Of a DNA stretch of 38,199 nt, positions 2,826 to 37,603 are shown in pieces. The notes below the pieces were generated by a model. The model saw nothing but the letters and a program-made list of their open reading frames with translations. It made no database searches and was not told the origin of the DNA. Made by a program: the position numbers and the translations under genes. This DNA comes from a virus: the IMG/VR virus record IMGVR_UViG_3300044799_000173, positions 1 through 38,199 of that record. One strand, written 5' to 3'. The number at the start of each line of letters is the position of its first letter. Position 1 is the first letter of the stretch.

Positions 2826-3443
2826 CTATATGACCGTTATCTTCTGCTTGAACCCGGCGGCGTGGTGGATTACCGTGATATATGGTCTATTGGCGGCGGT
2901 AGCATTATCAGAAGAGGAATATTGGTACTGGTTTTCCGTCTGACCGGGGGTCATCAATAAACAGAAACCGTTATTGGTCCAAGCAAGTGATGTGATTGCC
3001 TGAACTAAAGTTGCATTAAGTGGGATGTTTTTAAAACCATTGGCCTCATTATTTGCCAAGTCAAGATGGCCTATTTCGGTTGATTCCCGATCATTGGCCC
3101 CATCGCATCCGCCGGTCTGCCAATTGCTTCCAGTCTTCCAGATGACCCATGTCATTTGGTTTTCTACCCACGCCACTTTTACTCGATAGACATAGAGGAT
3201 CGGTGCGTTAGTACAGTAGTCGGTAACTTGATTGAGACTCAAGGTTGCCGAGTCGATAATGTTTGTGGCGGGGATTGAGCCATCAGAAAGCTGTGTGAAT
3301 TTTATGAGTGTCCGGTGAATCTGACCGCTATGGTGGCCAATGAAGAGCGGGTCATAAGTTTCATAGTTGGTAGTCGGGCTAGCATCATTAAATAATGCAT
3401 CCTTCCCCACGGTTGCATCGGGTTGAAAAACAGTGGTGGTCAT
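2826..3443 (-). CDS. DNRLRE-like beta-sandwich tail accessory protein
   Basis: A 205-residue protein that opens with VFQPDATVGKDALFND and PTTNY, followed by RTLIKF and IIDSATLSL. This is the usual layout of DNRLRE/CBM96-like domains, beta-sandwiches found in bacterial surface and phage adhesion proteins. The rest (WKTGSNWQTGGCDG, NIPLNATLVQAI, NGFCLLM) fits the same fold to the end, so it is a single-domain protein. ATGA overlap with the gene upstream. Probably a fibre-tip or carbohydrate-contact protein. The DNA is richer in A+T than the head genes. Confidence 0.7.
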   Translation of the reverse strand: MTTTVFQPDATVGKDALFNDASPTTNYETYDPLFIGHHSGQIHRTLIKFTQLSDGSIPATNIIDSATLSLNQVTDYCTNAPILYVYRVKVAWVENQMTWVIWKTGSNWQTGGCDGANDRESTEIGHLDLANNEANGFKNIPLNATLVQAITSLAWTNNGFCLLMTPGQTENQYQYSSSDNATAANRPYITVIHHAAGFKQKITVI

Positions 3444-4198
3444 GGCAGCGCAAATCCTAAAGTCACAATTAGGCCTTTGGCTTTCGTTGTGCTGGCTCCG
3501 GTAACGTCAAACCGAATCAGATCATTGGTCGCCACGTCGTCGTGGGCTGTGTCAATTGTCCCTGGCGTGGCGCTGGTATCTGTGCCAGTCTCTCCGGTCT
3601 CGATTGCCATAGCCGTTGAAAGCATATTAACACTATCTGTAAAGTTGTAAACTTGAATAGTTGTTGAGTTAGTAGTCCCCGCCGTAATAACGAAGGCGTG
3701 TATTTCGACCAAATTCATTCCATTGAAATCAGAGGCGATGTGATGCCATCCTACTCCGTTGGCGACAGCTACATCAGTTGTGTAGTCGTAGCAAGTTTCT
3801 TCTACATACCGTCTATAAAGTGTCGTTGCCGGATTGACCGATGCATTAAGAATATTAGCAAGTGACGTTGCCACCCCGGCAGCCAAGGTGCATTTTCCGA
3901 TGATCTTGGTTGTGCCGTTGTCGTTGTATCGAATATAAACGACATGGGAGATAACATCCGCATTGTAATATTCCCCGTCTACGACAACGCGCTGTGTAGA
4001 TGCGGCTGGAACGCCAACTATGTCCACCGCCGTCACCCCATTGGAAAGAATTGGAGTGTGGCCTGAGTTGGCCTTGGACCCGTCTACGGTCAAGTCTACC
4101 CAGTTGGTAGAAAATTGACACTCATTGGTATTCGTGGCCTCCCCGAGATAGGCTTGAAGTTTTCTTGTTACAGTGTCTAGTGTAATTTGATTGCTCAT
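3440..4198 (-). CDS. Putative virion/tail-fibre accessory protein
   Basis: 252 residues from ATG 4198, which has GGGAG nine bases upstream and begins one base after the fibre gene stop. Two beta-rich halves are visible: an N-terminal part with TVTRKLQAYLGEA and repeated VDIVGVPAAS/VVVDGEYYNADVISH strands, and a C-terminal part with NLVEIHAFVITAGTTNSTTIQVYNF and a run of small polar residues. It has no signal peptide or catalytic motif. Threonine/serine-rich beta proteins at this position are usually structural. The specific role is unknown. Confidence 0.6.
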   Translation of the reverse strand: MSNQITLDTVTRKLQAYLGEATNTNECQFSTNWVDLTVDGSKANSGHTPILSNGVTAVDIVGVPAASTQRVVVDGEYYNADVISHVVYIRYNDNGTTKIIGKCTLAAGVATSLANILNASVNPATTLYRRYVEETCYDYTTDVAVANGVGWHHIASDFNGMNLVEIHAFVITAGTTNSTTIQVYNFTDSVNMLSTAMAIETGETGTDTSATPGTIDTAHDDVATNDLIRFDVTGASTTKAKGLIVTLGFALP

Positions 4199-17351: not shown

Positions 17352-17402
17352 AATATGCGGTGAGTCTTTATTTCTGGCCGAGCCCCGAGGGGGTGGGCTG
17401 AT

Positions 17403-17419
17403 AATAGTATATCACTATT
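17403..17419 (-). promoter_or_regulatory. Extended -10 promoter with operator, copy B
   Basis: Minus-strand AATAGTGATATACTATT contains TGA-TATACT, an extended -10 element, with no good -35. The same 17 bases form an inverted repeat AATAGT/ACTATT. Expected transcript start is near 17399, giving a leader of roughly 80 nt to the terminator. The 33-codon ORF's stop codon lies within the motif. The exact copy at 23420-23436 supports function. Confidence 0.7.
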
Positions 17420-17516
17420 CCCGAGAAAGGGAATATTCCTTTTCAATCCAGTCCACGATCATCAACAGGGCTCGTCTGAGAATGATAAAAAATTCGCGGG
17501 CCTTCTTCTCATTCAT
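17415..17516 (-). CDS. 33-residue protein, paralogue of the one at 23432
   Basis: A 33-codon ORF starting in an ATGA overlap with the metallophosphoesterase stop and ending TAG inside the promoter motif. Sequence features: AREFF, then RRALLMIVDWIEK, then YSLSR. The paralogue at 23432 has REF, RRALLLIVVYIEK and YSLSR at the same positions and the same length. Conservation at protein level with diverged third bases indicates real translation. It has one amphipathic/hydrophobic helix and a basic start. The function is unknown; the constant link to a promoter/terminator unit suggests a regulatory or membrane-peptide role. Confidence 0.75.
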   Translation of the reverse strand: MNEKKAREFFIILRRALLMIVDWIEKEYSLSRE

Positions 17517-18529
17517 CGCACCAGATCTCCCTGGACGATGCGCTCGTTCCTGATGGTGAAGTCGTTGCCGTTAACCTCCAGGCCCATAAATCCGTGGTTC
17601 CACTTGTTGATGCGCGCGTATTCCGGCCACAGGCAGCACGTGCACCCGACCGACCACGCAGTGTCGAGCCGGCGGGAAAAGCTCATCTCCGCATGTTGCG
17701 AAGTCCGGTGCCAGTGGCCCTCCACAATGCACTCGACCGCCTTGAGGTATGCACCCCGCGCCGGGTTCACCGCGTTGCTTACCTGCATCAGCTCGTGCCC
17801 GTGGATGATGTTCAGTTTCCCTACAGTCAGAGGCACATCGTGATTGAACATCGTGATGCCGCGATCCTCGAGCTTCAGGTAGTCATTCCAGATGAACGTC
17901 TCCAGCCCGAACAGCTCGGGGGCCTTTCGCTTGAACATGCGGGTGAGCCAATACTCATGATTGCCGTGCCTCCAGAAGATCTTCGCATTAGGGAAAGCCC
18001 TCCTCAAGGCGTCAAAGAATTTGCCGAGGATCTCCAGCTCATCAAGAAATTTCGCCTTGGTGGGGTCGCGGTCGAACCACGAAAGCTGGTAGCAGTCGAT
18101 GATGTCGCCGCCGAGCAGCACGAAGTCAGTGTGGCCATTGTCAAGAGCCCACCGGATGCAAACCTCCAGCGCCTTCCTGTCGTGGTACGGTATATGCGAG
18201 TCGAAGATGCCCAGCCCCTTCCCCGCTTGAACAGGCAACCTCACGGGTCGCCAGTGGTCCATCAGACTATTCGGCAGTCCGAACGGGTTTGTTCTAAGCA
18301 TTTCGCCCTTCTCCTTATCCCTGAACATATCTTTTGTAGTGGCATATTTTCGATTGAAGTTCCCCATCGTTCCGGCATAATAACGGAGGCAATTCCGGGC
18401 GTTCTCTTCATCATCAAAAGCCAGAGGATTATCTCTAAAAAGAATTTTGGCAAGTTGGCGGTGCGACGCATCCGGGAATTTTTGCAATATCTCCCTGGCA
18501 AGATCTCCCTTGATGGATCTATGAATCAT
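17513..18529 (-). CDS. Calcineurin-like metallophosphoesterase
   Basis: 338 residues from ATG 18529; a GTG at 18535 is possible. The metal-binding motifs are complete: D110-S-H112, G-G-D142 with D145, G-N190-H191-E192, then IIHGHE and EGHWHR. The first 90 or so residues form a separate helical domain (SHRQLAKILF, EENARNCLRYYAG) resembling an HTH often attached to phage phosphoesterases. It would hydrolyse a phosphoester or nucleic acid; the substrate is unknown. Its location between the MuF-type gene and the scaffold is odd for an enzyme. It may process DNA ends or be packaged. Confidence 0.85.
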   Translation of the reverse strand: MIHRSIKGDLAREILQKFPDASHRQLAKILFRDNPLAFDDEENARNCLRYYAGTMGNFNRKYATTKDMFRDKEKGEMLRTNPFGLPNSLMDHWRPVRLPVQAGKGLGIFDSHIPYHDRKALEVCIRWALDNGHTDFVLLGGDIIDCYQLSWFDRDPTKAKFLDELEILGKFFDALRRAFPNAKIFWRHGNHEYWLTRMFKRKAPELFGLETFIWNDYLKLEDRGITMFNHDVPLTVGKLNIIHGHELMQVSNAVNPARGAYLKAVECIVEGHWHRTSQHAEMSFSRRLDTAWSVGCTCCLWPEYARINKWNHGFMGLEVNGNDFTIRNERIVQGDLVR

Positions 18530-23370: not shown

Positions 23371-23419
23371 ATATGCGGCGGGTCTTTCTTTTTGCCGGGC
23401 TCCGAAGAGGCGGGCTGAA

Positions 23420-23436
23420 AATAGTATATCACTATT
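23420..23436 (-). promoter_or_regulatory. Extended -10 promoter with operator, copy A
   Basis: Identical 17-bp AATAGTGATATACTATT motif: extended -10 TGA-TATACT (-10 hexamer at 23428 to 23423) inside an AATAGT/ACTATT palindrome. A weak TTCACT sits at -35 spacing (16 nt). Expected to start a leader of about 80 nt that ends at the terminator 23337-23370 unless antiterminated. Confidence 0.7.
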
Positions 23437-23533
23437 TCCGGGACAGTGAATATTTCTTTTCAATATAGACCACAATTAACAGGAGTGCCCGCCTGACAAC
23501 CAATAGAAACTCACGGAACTCCGATTCAGTCAT
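23432..23533 (-). CDS. 33-residue protein, paralogue of the one at 17415
   Basis: ATG 23533 overlaps the upstream stop; an ATG at 23545 would add four residues, but the shorter form aligns end to end with the paralogue. Shared pattern: REF near the start, RRALL-x-IV, IEK, and a YSLSR ending, in both exactly 33 residues. The middle (FLLVVRRALLLIVVYI) is strongly hydrophobic, with a pair of arginines in it. Same context as copy B: ORF, then promoter, then terminator, then late genes. No recognised family. Confidence 0.72.
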   Translation of the reverse strand: MTESEFREFLLVVRRALLLIVVYIEKKYSLSRK

Positions 23534-23681
23534 CAGTGCTTTCATGTTGGCGTTCGATTTTCTCGATCTTCCGCCGGCCGGCGAGGATGCGCTTTCGGCG
23601 GCACTTCCGGCATTCCGCGCCGACGGCGGGATCCACCTGGCGGCCGCACTTTCCTGTGCAGGGCTTACGAAAGCCGATCAT
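23526..23681 (-). CDS. Small zinc-ribbon-like protein
   Basis: 51 residues from ATG 23681, in an ATGA overlap with the previous gene. CTGKC and, 13 residues later, CRKC form a likely four-cysteine zinc site. The rest is very basic (RRKRILAGRRKIEK). It resembles tiny phage nucleic-acid-binding proteins. A longer start at 23741 exists inside the previous gene but lacks support. Confidence 0.6.
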   Translation of the reverse strand: MIGFRKPCTGKCGRQVDPAVGAECRKCRRKRILAGRRKIEKIERQHESTDD

Positions 23682-30969: not shown

Positions 30970-31847
30970 TTTTTGCCTGCTCCCTTGATCTTCTTCCCTT
31001 CTCGATCGCACTCGTAGAGCACTTTGCATTTCTTCGCCTTGATCTTGTCGGGGTATTCGGGCCGCGCGTGGACGACGATGTCTTTCGGATCCACTAGGCA
31101 GGCGACATAGCGGTCATCCTTGCCGTCTCGGAAGGCATCGCAGCCGGCCGGGTCGATGCAGAAATGCAGTCCGCCGCCGCACTCCGGTTTCGGATCCCAG
31201 TCCGGCTCTTCGACGAGGGAGCCGACCAGGTAGTGGATGCCGTTCTTGGTTTCGAATTCATGGCCGGTCCGTTTGTAGAGGATCGTTTTTCGTCCATCCA
31301 TTTTCGCACCGACCGCCTTTAGCCATTCCCGTGGTTCGGTGGTCTGGGAGAGAAGCGCAATTCTTTGTTTCGCCTTTCCGCCGGTTGCCTTGCAGCCCTT
31401 ATCCCGCAGGATGGCCGCGACAAATAAACTGTGCAGCACCGCGCTCGAGTTATCCCACAGCACCGCGCGCGAGTTCCCCCACAGCACCGCGCGCGAGTTC
31501 CCCCACAGCACCGCGCTCGAGTTCCCCCGCAGCACCGCGCTCGAGTTCCCCCGCAGCACCGCGCTCGAGTTATCCTGCAGCTCGGCGCTCGAGTTCCCCC
31601 ACAGCACCGCGCTCGAGTTATCCCACAGCTCCGCGCTCGAGTTCCCCCACAGCACCGCGCGCGAGTTCCCCCGCAGCACCGCGCTCGAGTTCCCACACAG
31701 CACCGCGCTCGAGTTATCCTGCAGCTCCGCGCGCGAGTTGTTTTTCAAAACCACGTGAACGTGTTTCTTGAATTCGTGCATTTTTCCGTCGTCGATTATT
31801 TCCGCCTCAACGACTCCATGCTCAGGGCAAAATATATTCTCGGTCAT
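30966..31847 (-). CDS. Octapeptide-repeat protein with DUF7666-like domain
   Basis: 293 residues with AAGGAG before ATG 31847. Residues 37-140 are 13 octapeptide repeats of the type NSSAVLWG with alternation of S/R, V/E, and W/R/C/Q followed by G or D. The pattern of small polar and hydrophobic positions suggests a stacked beta-solenoid. The C-terminal part (TILYKRTGHEFETKNGIHYLVG, CGGGLHFCIDP, DDRYVACLV) resembles DUF7666, a domain of unknown function found behind such repeats. The first residues (FCPEHGVVEAEI) may bind metal. No enzyme motif is visible. Confidence 0.7.
   Translation of the reverse strand: MTENIFCPEHGVVEAEIIDDGKMHEFKKHVHVVLKNNSRAELQDNSSAVLCGNSSAVLRGNSRAVLWGNSSAELWDNSSAVLWGNSSAELQDNSSAVLRGNSSAVLRGNSSAVLWGNSRAVLWGNSRAVLWDNSSAVLHSLFVAAILRDKGCKATGGKAKQRIALLSQTTEPREWLKAVGAKMDGRKTILYKRTGHEFETKNGIHYLVGSLVEEPDWDPKPECGGGLHFCIDPAGCDAFRDGKDDRYVACLVDPKDIVVHARPEYPDKIKAKKCKVLYECDREGKKIKGAGKK
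31430..31741 (-). repeat. 24-bp tandem repeat, 13 units
   Basis: Thirteen in-frame 24-bp units without length change. The core GCGC-(T/G)-CGAGTT is shared; variation is confined to a few codon positions: the S/R, V/E, and W/R/C/Q codons and the G/D codon. Units at 31452-31500 are identical. It encodes the octapeptide repeats of the DUF7666-like protein. Unit number could change by slippage or recombination. Confidence 0.92.
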
Positions 31848-33833: not shown

Positions 33834-34709
33834 TTAATCTCCTTTAGCTTCTTTGATAACTTCACGGACATACTTTAGCAAATCGACCAGCATATCTTCG
33901 AGTGCTTCGTATCTCTTCAGGTTTCCCCTCTCTCCCTTGACCCTCATCAACTTCAGCCAGGAGCGAATACCCTTAATCCAGATTGGGATGTACTCCCAAG
34001 TGGATGTCTCCGGCTTCTTCGCCTTCGCGTCGCGTTTGGCCTCGGTCGGCCCCTGGAGGCCCAACTCCTCATAGGGGACGCGCAACACAGCCTTCACGCC
34101 CTTGTTCCCGGCGTAGGACTGCTGCCGCTTGACTTCGGTTACAAGCGCCTCGGTCTGGCGGCTGGTAAGCTCTTCGGTTGCTACCTTCTTGGCTACAGCC
34201 CCTTGGACGGCGGGGGGAAGAGTGCGCAAATACCGGGCCTTCCAGGCTGCATCCGGAACGTTTGTTTTGCGCGAAACGAACTCTGCTATGATTGGTTTAG
34301 AATTAATCAAGGCGATTCTCTCGCTGATATAGGGCTCACTTTTGCCAACCGCCTCACCAATTTTGGTGTTCGTCCACCCCGTCAATTCCTTAATGGCCTT
34401 GAAGGCTTCCCCTTCTTCCATGTCGGAGAGATCCTCGCGTTGGACGTTCTCGATCACCGACTGGAGCAGCGCTTCGGTATCGTCCAGCCCTTCGACGGTG
34501 GCCTCGATCTCTTTCAGCCCCGCCTTCTTTGCGGCTATGGCCCGCCGATGGCCATACACGAGCTCATACTTGCCGTCGACTCTGCGCACCTTGACCGGGA
34601 CGATTACGCCGTGCTCCTTGATGCTGGCGACCATATCATCCAGGCCGTTAACTTCCCGGCGCAGCACGTTCTTTGCGTTCGTGATATCGCCTAACTGAAT
34701 CTTTGTCAT
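33834..34709 (-). CDS. ParB-like DNA-binding protein
   Basis: 291 residues with AAGGAGG before ATG 34709. The N-terminal ParB/Srx domain is clear: NGLDDMVASIKEHGVIVPVKV, YELVYGHRRAIAAKKAGL, then IENVQREDLSDMEEGEAF. KELTGWTNTKIGEAVGKSEPYISERIALI is the HTH that would read a parS-like palindrome. The C-terminal third is charged and helical, different from chromosomal ParB dimer domains. No ParA is present, so segregation is doubtful; such phage proteins may act in transcription or DNA binding. Several palindromes nearby are possible sites. Confidence 0.88.
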   Translation of the reverse strand: MTKIQLGDITNAKNVLRREVNGLDDMVASIKEHGVIVPVKVRRVDGKYELVYGHRRAIAAKKAGLKEIEATVEGLDDTEALLQSVIENVQREDLSDMEEGEAFKAIKELTGWTNTKIGEAVGKSEPYISERIALINSKPIIAEFVSRKTNVPDAAWKARYLRTLPPAVQGAVAKKVATEELTSRQTEALVTEVKRQQSYAGNKGVKAVLRVPYEELGLQGPTEAKRDAKAKKPETSTWEYIPIWIKGIRSWLKLMRVKGERGNLKRYEALEDMLVDLLKYVREVIKEAKGD

Positions 34710-34740
34710 GTCATCCTCCTTGATGAATGTTTTGGGTGAT

Positions 34741-34780
34741 CTGGAGTGCAGTCGAAAGCATGGACACTACTGCACTCCAG
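34741..34780 (-). promoter_or_regulatory. 12-bp perfect hairpin before parB
   Basis: CTGGAGTGCAGT (34741-34752) and ACTGCACTCCAG (34769-34780) are perfect inverted repeats around 16 nt. They lie about 30 bp before the parB ATG. No T run follows on either strand. It is a candidate ParB site or translational control hairpin. A weak 37-codon frame (34819 to 34706) runs through it and ends in an ATGA overlap with parB, but has no ribosome site. Confidence 0.6.
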
Positions 34781-34787
34781 ACCAGGT

Positions 34788-34849
34788 TGTGGGAGGTCGG
34801 TGGCCGCTTCGCGTGTCATTGCCTGATGGAAGTCCGCGTGCCTCCCACA
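34788..34849 (-). other. Stem-loop with 9-bp closing stem
   Basis: TGTGGGAGG (34788-34796) pairs perfectly with CCTCCCACA (34841-34849), enclosing 44 nt. It stands between the tRNA-like fold and the parB hairpin. Together the three leave little unstructured sequence in the whole 210-nt gap. Confidence 0.5.
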
Positions 34850-34850
34850 G

Positions 34851-34913
34851 AGCAGCCGCCGGGGATCGAGCCCGGTCGCGCCCCCATCCCCGAAGGGATC
34901 GGCGCCGGCTGCT
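34851..34913 (-). ncRNA. tRNA-like three-way-junction RNA element
   Basis: On the minus strand an 8-bp outer stem (AGCAGCCG/CGGCTGCT) closes two arms. One arm has a GCGCC/GGCGC stem carrying ATCCC-TTCG-GGGAT, a very stable tetraloop hairpin. The other is a 5-bp CCGGG/CCCGG stem with a 7-nt CTCGATC loop that abuts the outer stem without a spacer. This arm has the size, position and most loop bases of a tRNA T-arm. There is no anticodon or D arm, so it is not a tRNA gene. It starts seven bases after the ATPase stop. Confidence 0.5.
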
Positions 34914-34919
34914 GTGTTG

Positions 34920-35867
34920 CTATTCACCCTTCGCGCGCAACTCCAGGAGCTCGAATGAGCGCGCGAGATCCTGTTCGCATTCCGCGACAATGGCCTTGCC
35001 ATCATCCAAGGTCATGCCCAGCTCGAGGACCCGCGTGTAGAACTTGGTCCAGCCCGCTTTGCCTGTCCGCGGAACTGGTGCAACTGTCGGTAAGGGCATG
35101 GCTGCAAGTGACGGAGAAGCCTCCTGCGGCGCCTGGTTGATCGCCGCGCCATCGGGTATCTCGACCGCAGCACCATCCGTCAGCCAGGTGCGCAGCGTGT
35201 CCGCAATCTCTTTGCCCGGCATCGGGATCACCTTGCCGTCGAGCGCGGAACAGCGCGTCTTCGAGATCACCAATTGGTGATCGATGCTGAGATCACCCAC
35301 GACATCGAACTCGTATTCCATGCCGTCGCGTTGGACCGGTTGCATCCCGATCTTGGTGATCCTTGTCTTCCCCTGATCGTCCTTCTCCTGGATGTATTCG
35401 GTCTTCGCGCGCATCGTGCAGATTACATGGCAGGGTGATTGCAGAATGGCTTCGACCAGATCGTTATGGAGGGGAGTCACGTCGCGCCAGGCGGTCCATT
35501 TGTTGCCGCTCTTGGATCGCGCAGCGGCATTGTCGACCAGCTCCAGGGCGCCGCCCTTCCCAGCCCAGGCATGAGAGAGGCTGTCGATGATCAGGAGCTG
35601 GTAGCCGGCTTCCTCAGCCATGTGGATGGCTTCCACATAGGTGCGCGGGTTGAAGTCTCTGAGTTCCAGCGTGTCAAACTCGAACTCATCCGCATACTTG
35701 CTGGCGGATCCGTGCTCTGTGTCAATCAGCGCGGTGCGCCCGCCCAGGTGCTTCGCGATCCGGAGAGCCGTGTAGGTTTTGCCGGATCCGCCCGGTCCGA
35801 TCAGACTCAGGCGCAGGCGGGATTGCTTCTTGCTGGCTTTCTGAAATTGCATTGGATTGCTACTCAT
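34920..35867 (-). CDS. Sak4-like RecA-fold ATPase (annealing/recombination)
   Basis: 315 residues with AAGGAGG before ATG 35867. Walker A G24-P-G-G-S-G-K-T31 and Walker B YQLLIIDSLSH are clear. KKQSRLRLSLIGPGG, ALIDTEHGSASKYAD and NKWTAWRDVTPLHNDLVEAIL with VICTMRAKTEY are the common pattern of phage AAA_24/Sak4 proteins, which help strand annealing with SSB. A proline/alanine linker near residue 250 precedes a short helical C-terminal domain (AGWTKFYTRVLELGMT). No SSB gene was recognised in the window; the 92-residue gene upstream might take that place. Confidence 0.8.
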   Translation of the reverse strand: MSSNPMQFQKASKKQSRLRLSLIGPGGSGKTYTALRIAKHLGGRTALIDTEHGSASKYADEFEFDTLELRDFNPRTYVEAIHMAEEAGYQLLIIDSLSHAWAGKGGALELVDNAAARSKSGNKWTAWRDVTPLHNDLVEAILQSPCHVICTMRAKTEYIQEKDDQGKTRITKIGMQPVQRDGMEYEFDVVGDLSIDHQLVISKTRCSALDGKVIPMPGKEIADTLRTWLTDGAAVEIPDGAAINQAPQEASPSLAAMPLPTVAPVPRTGKAGWTKFYTRVLELGMTLDDGKAIVAECEQDLARSFELLELRAKGE

Positions 35868-36695: not shown

Positions 36696-36989
36696 TCACC
36701 TCACCGGTTTGTAGCACCTTCGGAAATCGGGGATCCACTTGCTATGGGCGCCGCCCACCGGCCACCGGTAGGTCACCTTGTAACGGCGCACCATGAGAAC
36801 CAAAGCCGTGTGGGCTTCTTGACGGTCGATGGTTTCCCAAGTTTGGCCAGGAACTACCTTTGGCCCGATGAAGGTGCGTAAGAGCGTCCACCAAACACCA
36901 AGCCAATGAATTTCCCAAAACTCGCCGGGGTGAAAATCGAATGTCATAGTTTGATCCTCAATTGCGAGGGTCTTTCGGTTAATATTCAT
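36696..36989 (-). CDS. Hypothetical tryptophan-rich protein
   Basis: 97 residues from ATG 36989, whose ATGA overlap with the endonuclease stop decides the start (a longer frame to 37019 is not needed). FHPGEFWEIHWLGVWWTLLRTFIGP is aromatic, followed by a helix EAHTALVLMVRRYKVTY and a basic end. No motif is recognised. It follows a homing-type endonuclease in the same transcript. Confidence 0.58.
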   Translation of the reverse strand: MNINRKTLAIEDQTMTFDFHPGEFWEIHWLGVWWTLLRTFIGPKVVPGQTWETIDRQEAHTALVLMVRRYKVTYRWPVGGAHSKWIPDFRRCYKPVR

Positions 36990-37603
36990 CGTGCCTTCTC
37001 TGCTCTGCGAAGGGCCCAAAAGGCCCTCGATCTGTCACCGGTCTTCCTCCGCTCCTCCGAGTTCTCATAGCGCTTCTTCATCACTGCAGACATTTTTGCC
37101 CGTACCTCCGGACGGTTCATTGTGATTTTCATTGATGTGGATCTTTTTGCCCGCACCTCCGGGCGACTCTGTGCGCCCTTCTGCACCGCGGACAGCCTGG
37201 CCCGCACCTCCGGGCAGTTCTGTGTGACCTTCTTCGTTGCGGACTGCCTGGCCCGTACCTCCGGGCGGTTTTGCGCTGCGGATTCCCTGGCTCTCCTCTC
37301 CTTCGGGTGGTGGGGCTCACTCCCCCCTGAGGCGCTCTGGTTCAGGTTGTAGGCCGGGCGGTGGTGGTCGAGGTACCACTGCTCATACTGAACGCACTTG
37401 TGCCTGGGGCAGGGGATGAGGAGTGTGAAGCTGAAGTGCTCTTCACCGTAATTCTTGAAGGCCGCTTGCAGGTTACGGTTGTGGTGTGTACTTGCGCACA
37501 GGTCGTCAAGGTGACCCCGCATGCGCCTTTCAACATCGTAGGCACGGCCAATGTATTCGTTGCCGTTGACGTCACATACGATGTGGTAAATTCCACTTGT
37601 CAT
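36986..37603 (-). CDS. GIY-YIG endonuclease with NUMOD3 repeats
   Basis: 205 residues with AGGAGGTGA upstream of ATG 37603. The nuclease domain is complete at the N-terminus: G4-I-Y6, Y17-I-G19, then R20 and YDVERRMRGHLDDL, and a late E in YEQWYLDHHRPAYNLN. From about residue 105 there are five copies of a PEVRA-(R/K)-x-S motif spaced 18 or so residues apart. These are NUMOD3-type DNA-binding modules seen in homing endonucleases. It nicks or cuts DNA. It is free-standing: no intron or intein splits a neighbouring gene. It may spread itself between phages. Confidence 0.88.
   Translation of the reverse strand: MTSGIYHIVCDVNGNEYIGRAYDVERRMRGHLDDLCASTHHNRNLQAAFKNYGEEHFSFTLLIPCPRHKCVQYEQWYLDHHRPAYNLNQSASGGSEPHHPKERRARESAAQNRPEVRARQSATKKVTQNCPEVRARLSAVQKGAQSRPEVRAKRSTSMKITMNRPEVRAKMSAVMKKRYENSEERRKTGDRSRAFWALRRAEKAR

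Follow-up and report, generated by a model that had tools for sequence, protein, structure and literature searches.

In the genome of an uncultured, GC-rich phage (IMG/VR record IMGVR_UViG_3300044799_000173, whose 38,199 bases were analyzed in full and are referred to here as the window), a 210-nt gap at 34710–34919 separates a Sak4-like gene from a parB-like gene within a replication/recombination module. Just behind the Sak4 stop codon, the gap can fold into a three-way junction that recalls part of a tRNA. This raises the question of what the gap encodes, and whether the junction is a tRNA-like signal in a phage message or one of the many hairpins of a strongly folding genome.

The folded gap between Sak4 and parB

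In a PHROG search, the Sak4-like protein matched phrog_1366 (E 8.6e-88) and the Sak4-like phrog_124 (E 6.7e-14), and its relatives in viral contigs are 38–67% identical. Searches for close relatives of the phage via Sak4, ParB and terminase gave best identities of only 67%, 40% and 46%, respectively, and megablast of the window against the phage collection returned no match. IMG/VR contained no near-identical gap element, only two chance coding matches; DNA similarity to mycobacteriophages and actinobacterial plasmids falls in the parB gene, outside the gap. No near relative of the window phage was found in the collections searched, so that any covariation evidence comes from outside its own family. 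No intrinsic terminator (a GC-rich hairpin followed by a U run) was detected on the minus strand between 33000 and 36500, nor a promoter nearby on that strand, and the gap is therefore most simply regarded as part of a Sak4–parB transcript. The sequence-only reading had described the surrounding DNA as otherwise gap-free; this was wrong, as a crude gene list holds about eight further gaps of more than 80 nt elsewhere in the window.

Folding of the gap gave a minimum free energy z-score of -4.67 on the minus strand, with none of 200 shuffles as low, and of -2.68 on the plus strand. In a scan of 191 windows of equal size (226 nt), the gap (z -4.0) was the second-lowest of all, and many other strongly folded stretches occur across the phage genome. 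Read 5' to 3' on the minus strand, the Sak4 stop codon is followed by a short spacer, the three-way junction, a closed stem-loop, a hairpin and a mostly open leader that carries the parB Shine-Dalgarno sequence and start codon (Table 1). The three elements described in the sequence-only reading are thus present, in the sense of the flanking genes, although its statement that almost no base is left single-stranded went too far: stem-loop 2 encloses 44 nt with little structure, hairpin 3 ends in a loop of 16 nt, and about 27 nt ahead of the parB start are mostly open. Among the individual parts of the gap, hairpin 3, which directly precedes the parB leader, has the strongest folding signal; it comprises 15 Watson-Crick pairs and one G-U pair rather than the 12 bp first proposed. 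Stem-loop 2 and hairpin 3 show no tRNA-like features.

Table 1. Features of the Sak4–parB locus in the window.
Feature	Position	Strand	Details
Sak4-like recombinase/AAA ATPase gene	34920..35867	minus	stop codon 34922-34920, upstream of the junction
Three-way junction, candidate minimal tRNA-like element	34851..34913	minus	6 nt past Sak4 stop; basis: fold, shuffles, L008 match
Acceptor-like stem, 5' strand AGCAGCCG	34906..34913	minus	pairs with 34858-34851; 8 bp, all Watson-Crick
Third arm, UUCG tetraloop cap	34876..34905	minus	D and anticodon arms absent; basis: fold
T-arm-like hairpin CCGGG-CTCGATC-CCCGG	34859..34875	minus	5-bp/7-nt, flush with acceptor-like stem; C at position 54
Acceptor-like stem, 3' strand CGGCTGCT	34851..34858	minus	followed by CTGTG; CCA not encoded
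Stem-loop 2, 9-bp GC-rich stem TGTGGGAGG/CCTCCCACA closing 44 nt	34788..34849	minus	z -2.5
Hairpin 3, 16-bp stem TGGTCTGGAGTGCAGT/ACTGCACTCCAGATCA, 16-nt loop	34737..34784	minus	z -5.5, 0/200 shuffles
parB Shine-Dalgarno AGGAGG	34715..34720	minus	5 nt ahead of ATG; basis: sequence
parB-like gene, downstream of the gap	33834..34709	minus	PHROG phrog_3264, E 4.6e-31

An open reading frame of 99 aa (34706–35005) runs through the whole gap, and its TGA overlaps the parB ATG in an ATGA arrangement. However, its codon-position GC is flat (0.67/0.59/0.61, against 0.61/0.44/0.74 in Sak4), and it has neither a Pfam match nor a tblastn match among the related loci searched. The flat profile marks the gap as non-coding, and together with the absent matches it led us to reject a small overlapping gene, to which we attach next to no probability. 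The gap is thus a real, non-coding, strongly folded region on the genes' own strand.

Its inverted repeats might instead act as DNA, for example as a replication origin, a parS-like partition site or a parB operator. The location next to parB in a replication/recombination module is compatible with such a role, and the arms of stem-loop 2 and hairpin 3 can be read as DNA half-sites. Nevertheless, the rest of the window contains no more copies of these arms than expected by chance, the gap region contains no iterons, and both the better folding of the minus-strand RNA and the G-U pair in hairpin 3 point to RNA, which makes a DNA-level element decidedly unlikely. The proposed riboregulation of parB was not borne out: a small predicted hairpin presents the Shine-Dalgarno sequence in its loop, and no alternative fold emerged. 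Riboswitch-like masking of the Shine-Dalgarno sequence by the CCTCC of stem 2 was considered and rejected, as stem 2 is far stronger.

Several other repeats were recorded in the window. A 146-nt sequence occurs twice (17372–17517 and 23389–23534, 73% identical) and consists of the end of a small gene (RRALL.IV..IEK.YSLSR), the promoter-like TAGTGATATACTATT and a GC hairpin. Twelve tandem copies of a 24-bp repeat lie within a coding region at 31384–31791, and four 42-bp repeats spaced at 51 bp (37076–37270) are found inside a GIY-YIG endonuclease gene (36986–37603, minus strand).

The three-way junction and its counterpart in a second phage

The outer stem of the junction, AGCAGCCG/CGGCTGCT, is flush with the T-arm-like hairpin and reproduces exactly the acceptor/T-arm arrangement of a tRNA, an acceptor stem stacked on a 5-bp/7-nt T-arm. 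A strict descriptor (seven Watson-Crick acceptor pairs, a 5-bp stem closed by G-C, and the loop [TC]TC[AG]AN[CT]) found this arrangement once in the real window, and never in 400 whole-window shuffles or 20,000 gap shuffles. The likeness to a T-arm noted from the sequence holds for these dimensions and for the position on the outer stem; it fails at T-loop position 54, where the junction has C and 436 of 444 scored phage tRNAs in the collected loci have T (C in one). Accordingly, the loop CUCGAUC does not follow the UUCRANY motif with its U54-A58 reverse Hoogsteen pair, and a scan for the C54 T-arm gave 13 stretches, none of them a tRNA-like element elsewhere. The junction might be extended by 3 bp (ACA/UGU), but the bases involved overlap the 5' side of stem 2, so that the extension and stem 2 are mutually exclusive. 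ARAGORN called no tRNA in the gap, which also matches no known Rfam family, and the Rfam tRNA covariance model (RF00005) did not match the junction. An anticodon arm (5 bp, 7-nt loop, U33) is absent, and the only further arm is the UUCG-capped one. The element is thus not a tRNA, as had been stated from the sequence.

A covariance model built from the window junction alone was searched against two sets of loci, of 549 kb and 341 kb (890 kb in total). In both searches, the best non-self match was the same element, L008 3932–3988 (26.6 bits; E 0.0038 and 0.0024; the contig is labelled L230 in the second search). It begins 5 nt past the Sak4 stop codon of its phage and is composed of an acceptor-like stem, one tetraloop arm and a T-arm, with nothing else; the T-loop, TTCGATT, is canonical, and a terminator-like hairpin lies directly 3' of the element. 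In a flush alignment, the two phages preserve all 13 pairs of the acceptor stem and T-arm, two of them changed on one side and five on both, with a slight ambiguity in the L008 pairing register (8 bp flush, or 7 bp with a bulged C). The search proposed in the sequence-only reading, run for the junction, therefore returned one positive, and the compensatory changes that it sought are present, in this single relative.

The window junction can thus be assigned to an L008-type element, a junction directly behind the Sak4 stop, on the basis of two phages; L008 was the one positional homolog among well over 100 Sak4 loci. In Chloroflexota and Myxococcota, phylum-level searches for related prophages yielded Sak4 loci that lack the element behind Sak4. 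Several apparently ordinary tRNAs appeared among the weaker covariance matches, as expected of a tRNA-like element. As a distantly related phage carries a comparable element at the corresponding site, the junction is probably a real tRNA-like signal.

The main competing view is that the gap contains ordinary structured hairpins that set the ends or stability of the Sak4–parB mRNA, for instance by protection from RNase III or RNase E, and that the T-arm likeness is coincidental. Much of the folding significance comes from hairpin 3 and stem-loop 2, the junction folded alone reaches a z-score of only -2.5, and the frequency of strong folds in this GC-rich phage, the C at position 54 and the failure of the Rfam tRNA model all agree with this view. 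Coincidence, however, does not readily account for an exact acceptor/T-arm geometry and loop sequence never seen in shuffles, or for a top covariance match with an unmistakable T-loop directly behind the Sak4 gene of L008. We regard plain hairpins as a serious but less probable explanation, and consider it fairly probable that the junction is tRNA-like in identity. That identity is moderately supported, while its mechanism is something we infer.

Acceptor/T-arm elements in other phage contigs

Viral contigs and genomes supplied the Sak4 relatives. The first 58 loci (405 kb) contained 14 perfect acceptor and T-arm elements, compared with 0.1 in shuffles; five were ordinary tRNAs according to ARAGORN, and the non-canonical remainder consisted of L013 and L009 (matching tRNA models, with large inserts), the mascRNA-like L047, and L008. 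A scan for the L008 T-arm found 68 stretches, comprising 41 ordinary tRNAs, about 12 tmRNA-like 3' ends and an unusual remainder. Across 209 non-redundant loci, a set partly chosen by T-arm patterns, 56 acceptor/T-arm elements were not called by ARAGORN, compared with 1–5 chance matches of any kind per shuffle; the 56 include D-armless or odd tRNAs and attP fragments. No anticodon-like arm is present in the elements of L135 (at 1861), L194, L132, L157, L124, L047 and L008. These counts suggest that anticodon-less elements are not rare in environmental phages, and that phage 3' UTRs would consequently deserve a dedicated covariance model. Standard tools miss such elements because they lack an anticodon, and no account of such anticodon-less phage elements was found in the open-access papers searched.

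Among the collected contigs, L278–L281 (some 2.3 kb upstream of Sak4) and L234–L239 hold 3' fragments of tRNA-Arg(ACG) and tRNA-Met(CAT) whose 5' sides diverge, as is typical for attP sites. Given such fragments, the window junction might likewise derive from a decayed tRNA gene or from an attP tRNA fragment. An attP fragment, though, holds the 3' part alone, whereas both acceptor strands are present and fully paired in the junction. No remnant of D or anticodon arms is visible, and no integrase occurs among the window proteins scanned; this origin is highly improbable.

Other unusual tRNA-like arrangements were observed in the same collection. In L258:283–325 (+) and L284:1881–1988 (+), an acceptor/T-arm minihelix lies directly 3' of an apparent SSB gene end (Asp-Ile-Pro-Phe-stop), and the two minihelices differ by a compensatory change. 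L032:4018–4165 (+) and L163:385–534 (-) have an RNA-like stretch in common, in which three GTTCGA T-arm hairpins per contig are separated by conserved blocks; in L032, where the gene order is that of the window, this stretch fills the Sak4–ParB gap. The 436-kb phage contig L135 contains, at 3108–3722 (+), four tRNA-like genes in which a conserved insert (CGGCATCGCACCTCGC-hairpin-AAGCGGTTCCTACAAGC; about 50 nt) separates the anticodon arm from the T-arm. The insert has no Rfam match, and a group I intron is located nearby (1948–2178). In the gap behind Sak4 in L009 (4424–4588, +), a tRNA-like gene that passes the Rfam tRNA cut-off carries a 102-nt insert with a second complete T-arm nested in it. 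In the tRNA-like genes L003:911–1035 and L013:5012–5111 (+), the D arm is of the Leu/Ser type and the acceptor stem and T-arm are intact, but the anticodon region has undergone a large replacement.

Possible role and comparison with known RNAs

Considering its geometry and position, we hypothesize, with a probability of roughly 45%, that the junction represents a minimal tRNA-like element without an anticodon, located in the Sak4 3' UTR, and serves as a tRNA-like processing signal in the Sak4–parB transcript. RNase P measures the stack of acceptor stem and T-arm. The gap would then be an untranslated, cis-encoded RNA of this transcript; host RNase P would cut on the 5' side of the junction and thereby define where the Sak4 mRNA ends, on the 3' side of the junction RNase Z or exonucleases would act, and hairpin 3 might shield the 5' terminus thus created on the parB message or form an RNase III site. 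Sak4 and parB would thereby be uncoupled post-transcriptionally. We infer the enzyme steps, any CCA addition and any effect on expression. A processing signal appears the most likely role because the junction sits behind a stop codon and has no transcription signals of its own, and because RNase P is known to cut tRNA-like phage RNAs, namely the C4 and M3 RNAs, as well as intergenic RNAs (PMC11143913, PMC5320573).

Alternatively, the gap could release a trans-acting small RNA, either an RNase P-matured antisense RNA of the C4 type or a tRNA decoy against a defence nuclease. The three-stem C4 RNA of phages is matured by RNase P (PMC5320573, PMC11143913), and anticodon-less elements occur in the tRNA arrays of very large phages, as in L135. 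Cas12a3 is reported to cleave tRNA tails in antiphage defence (PMC12851939), which makes decoys thinkable. Against this, no Rfam family, C4 included, matched the gap, the loops show no obvious target and are short and stable, and the site directly past a stop codon fits a role in cis. A processed small RNA, as envisaged in the sequence-only reading, is possible; since no promoter or terminator was found on the minus strand, it would need to be excised from the Sak4–parB transcript. On balance, we consider a trans-acting RNA unlikely.

The separation of mRNAs by embedded tRNAs, known as tRNA punctuation, is familiar from organelles. If the junction is a processing signal, it could be one case of an unnamed class of phage elements, composed of an acceptor stem, a T-arm and one further arm without an anticodon, that lie in early-gene 3' UTRs and punctuate polycistronic messages for cutting by host tRNA-processing enzymes. 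The existence of such a class is doubtful at present; if real, it would mean that phages split their operon messages via host RNase P and RNase Z.

The term tRNA mimic, applied to the gap in the sequence-only reading, holds in a limited sense only, for which the acceptor/T-arm geometry, the covariance match in L008 and the wider anticodon-less set argue. Like a tRNA (RF00005), the junction has an acceptor-like stem of 7/8 bp that directly abuts a 5-bp/7-nt T-arm, and its loop TCGATC corresponds to positions 55–60; unlike a tRNA, it lacks a D arm, an anticodon arm and an encoded CCA, and has C at position 54. The tRNA-like domain of tmRNA (RF00023) likewise combines an acceptor stem and a T-arm without an anticodon arm, whereas the junction has no tag-coding region, pseudoknots, long P2 helix or CCA; the family model did not match the gap, and the L008 T-arm scored a sub-threshold 16.4 bits against it. 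The eukaryotic nuclear mascRNA/menRNA (RF01684), a tRNA-like element without a functional anticodon that lies behind the MALAT1 transcript and is cut by RNase P, is comparable by its working mode only. Its model gave weak scores for L008 (21.4 bits) and L047 (30.7 bits), both under the 42.5 cut-off, and no match to the window record up to E 10. The C4-type antisense RNA of P1/P7 is also a phage RNA with three stems, and its Rfam model did not match the gap. The seven phage elements without an anticodon-like arm (L008, L135 1861, L132, L157, L194, L124 and L047) all differ from the junction in having T at position 54, and most do not adjoin Sak4; they share with it an acceptor-like stem, one or two extra arms and a flush T-arm.
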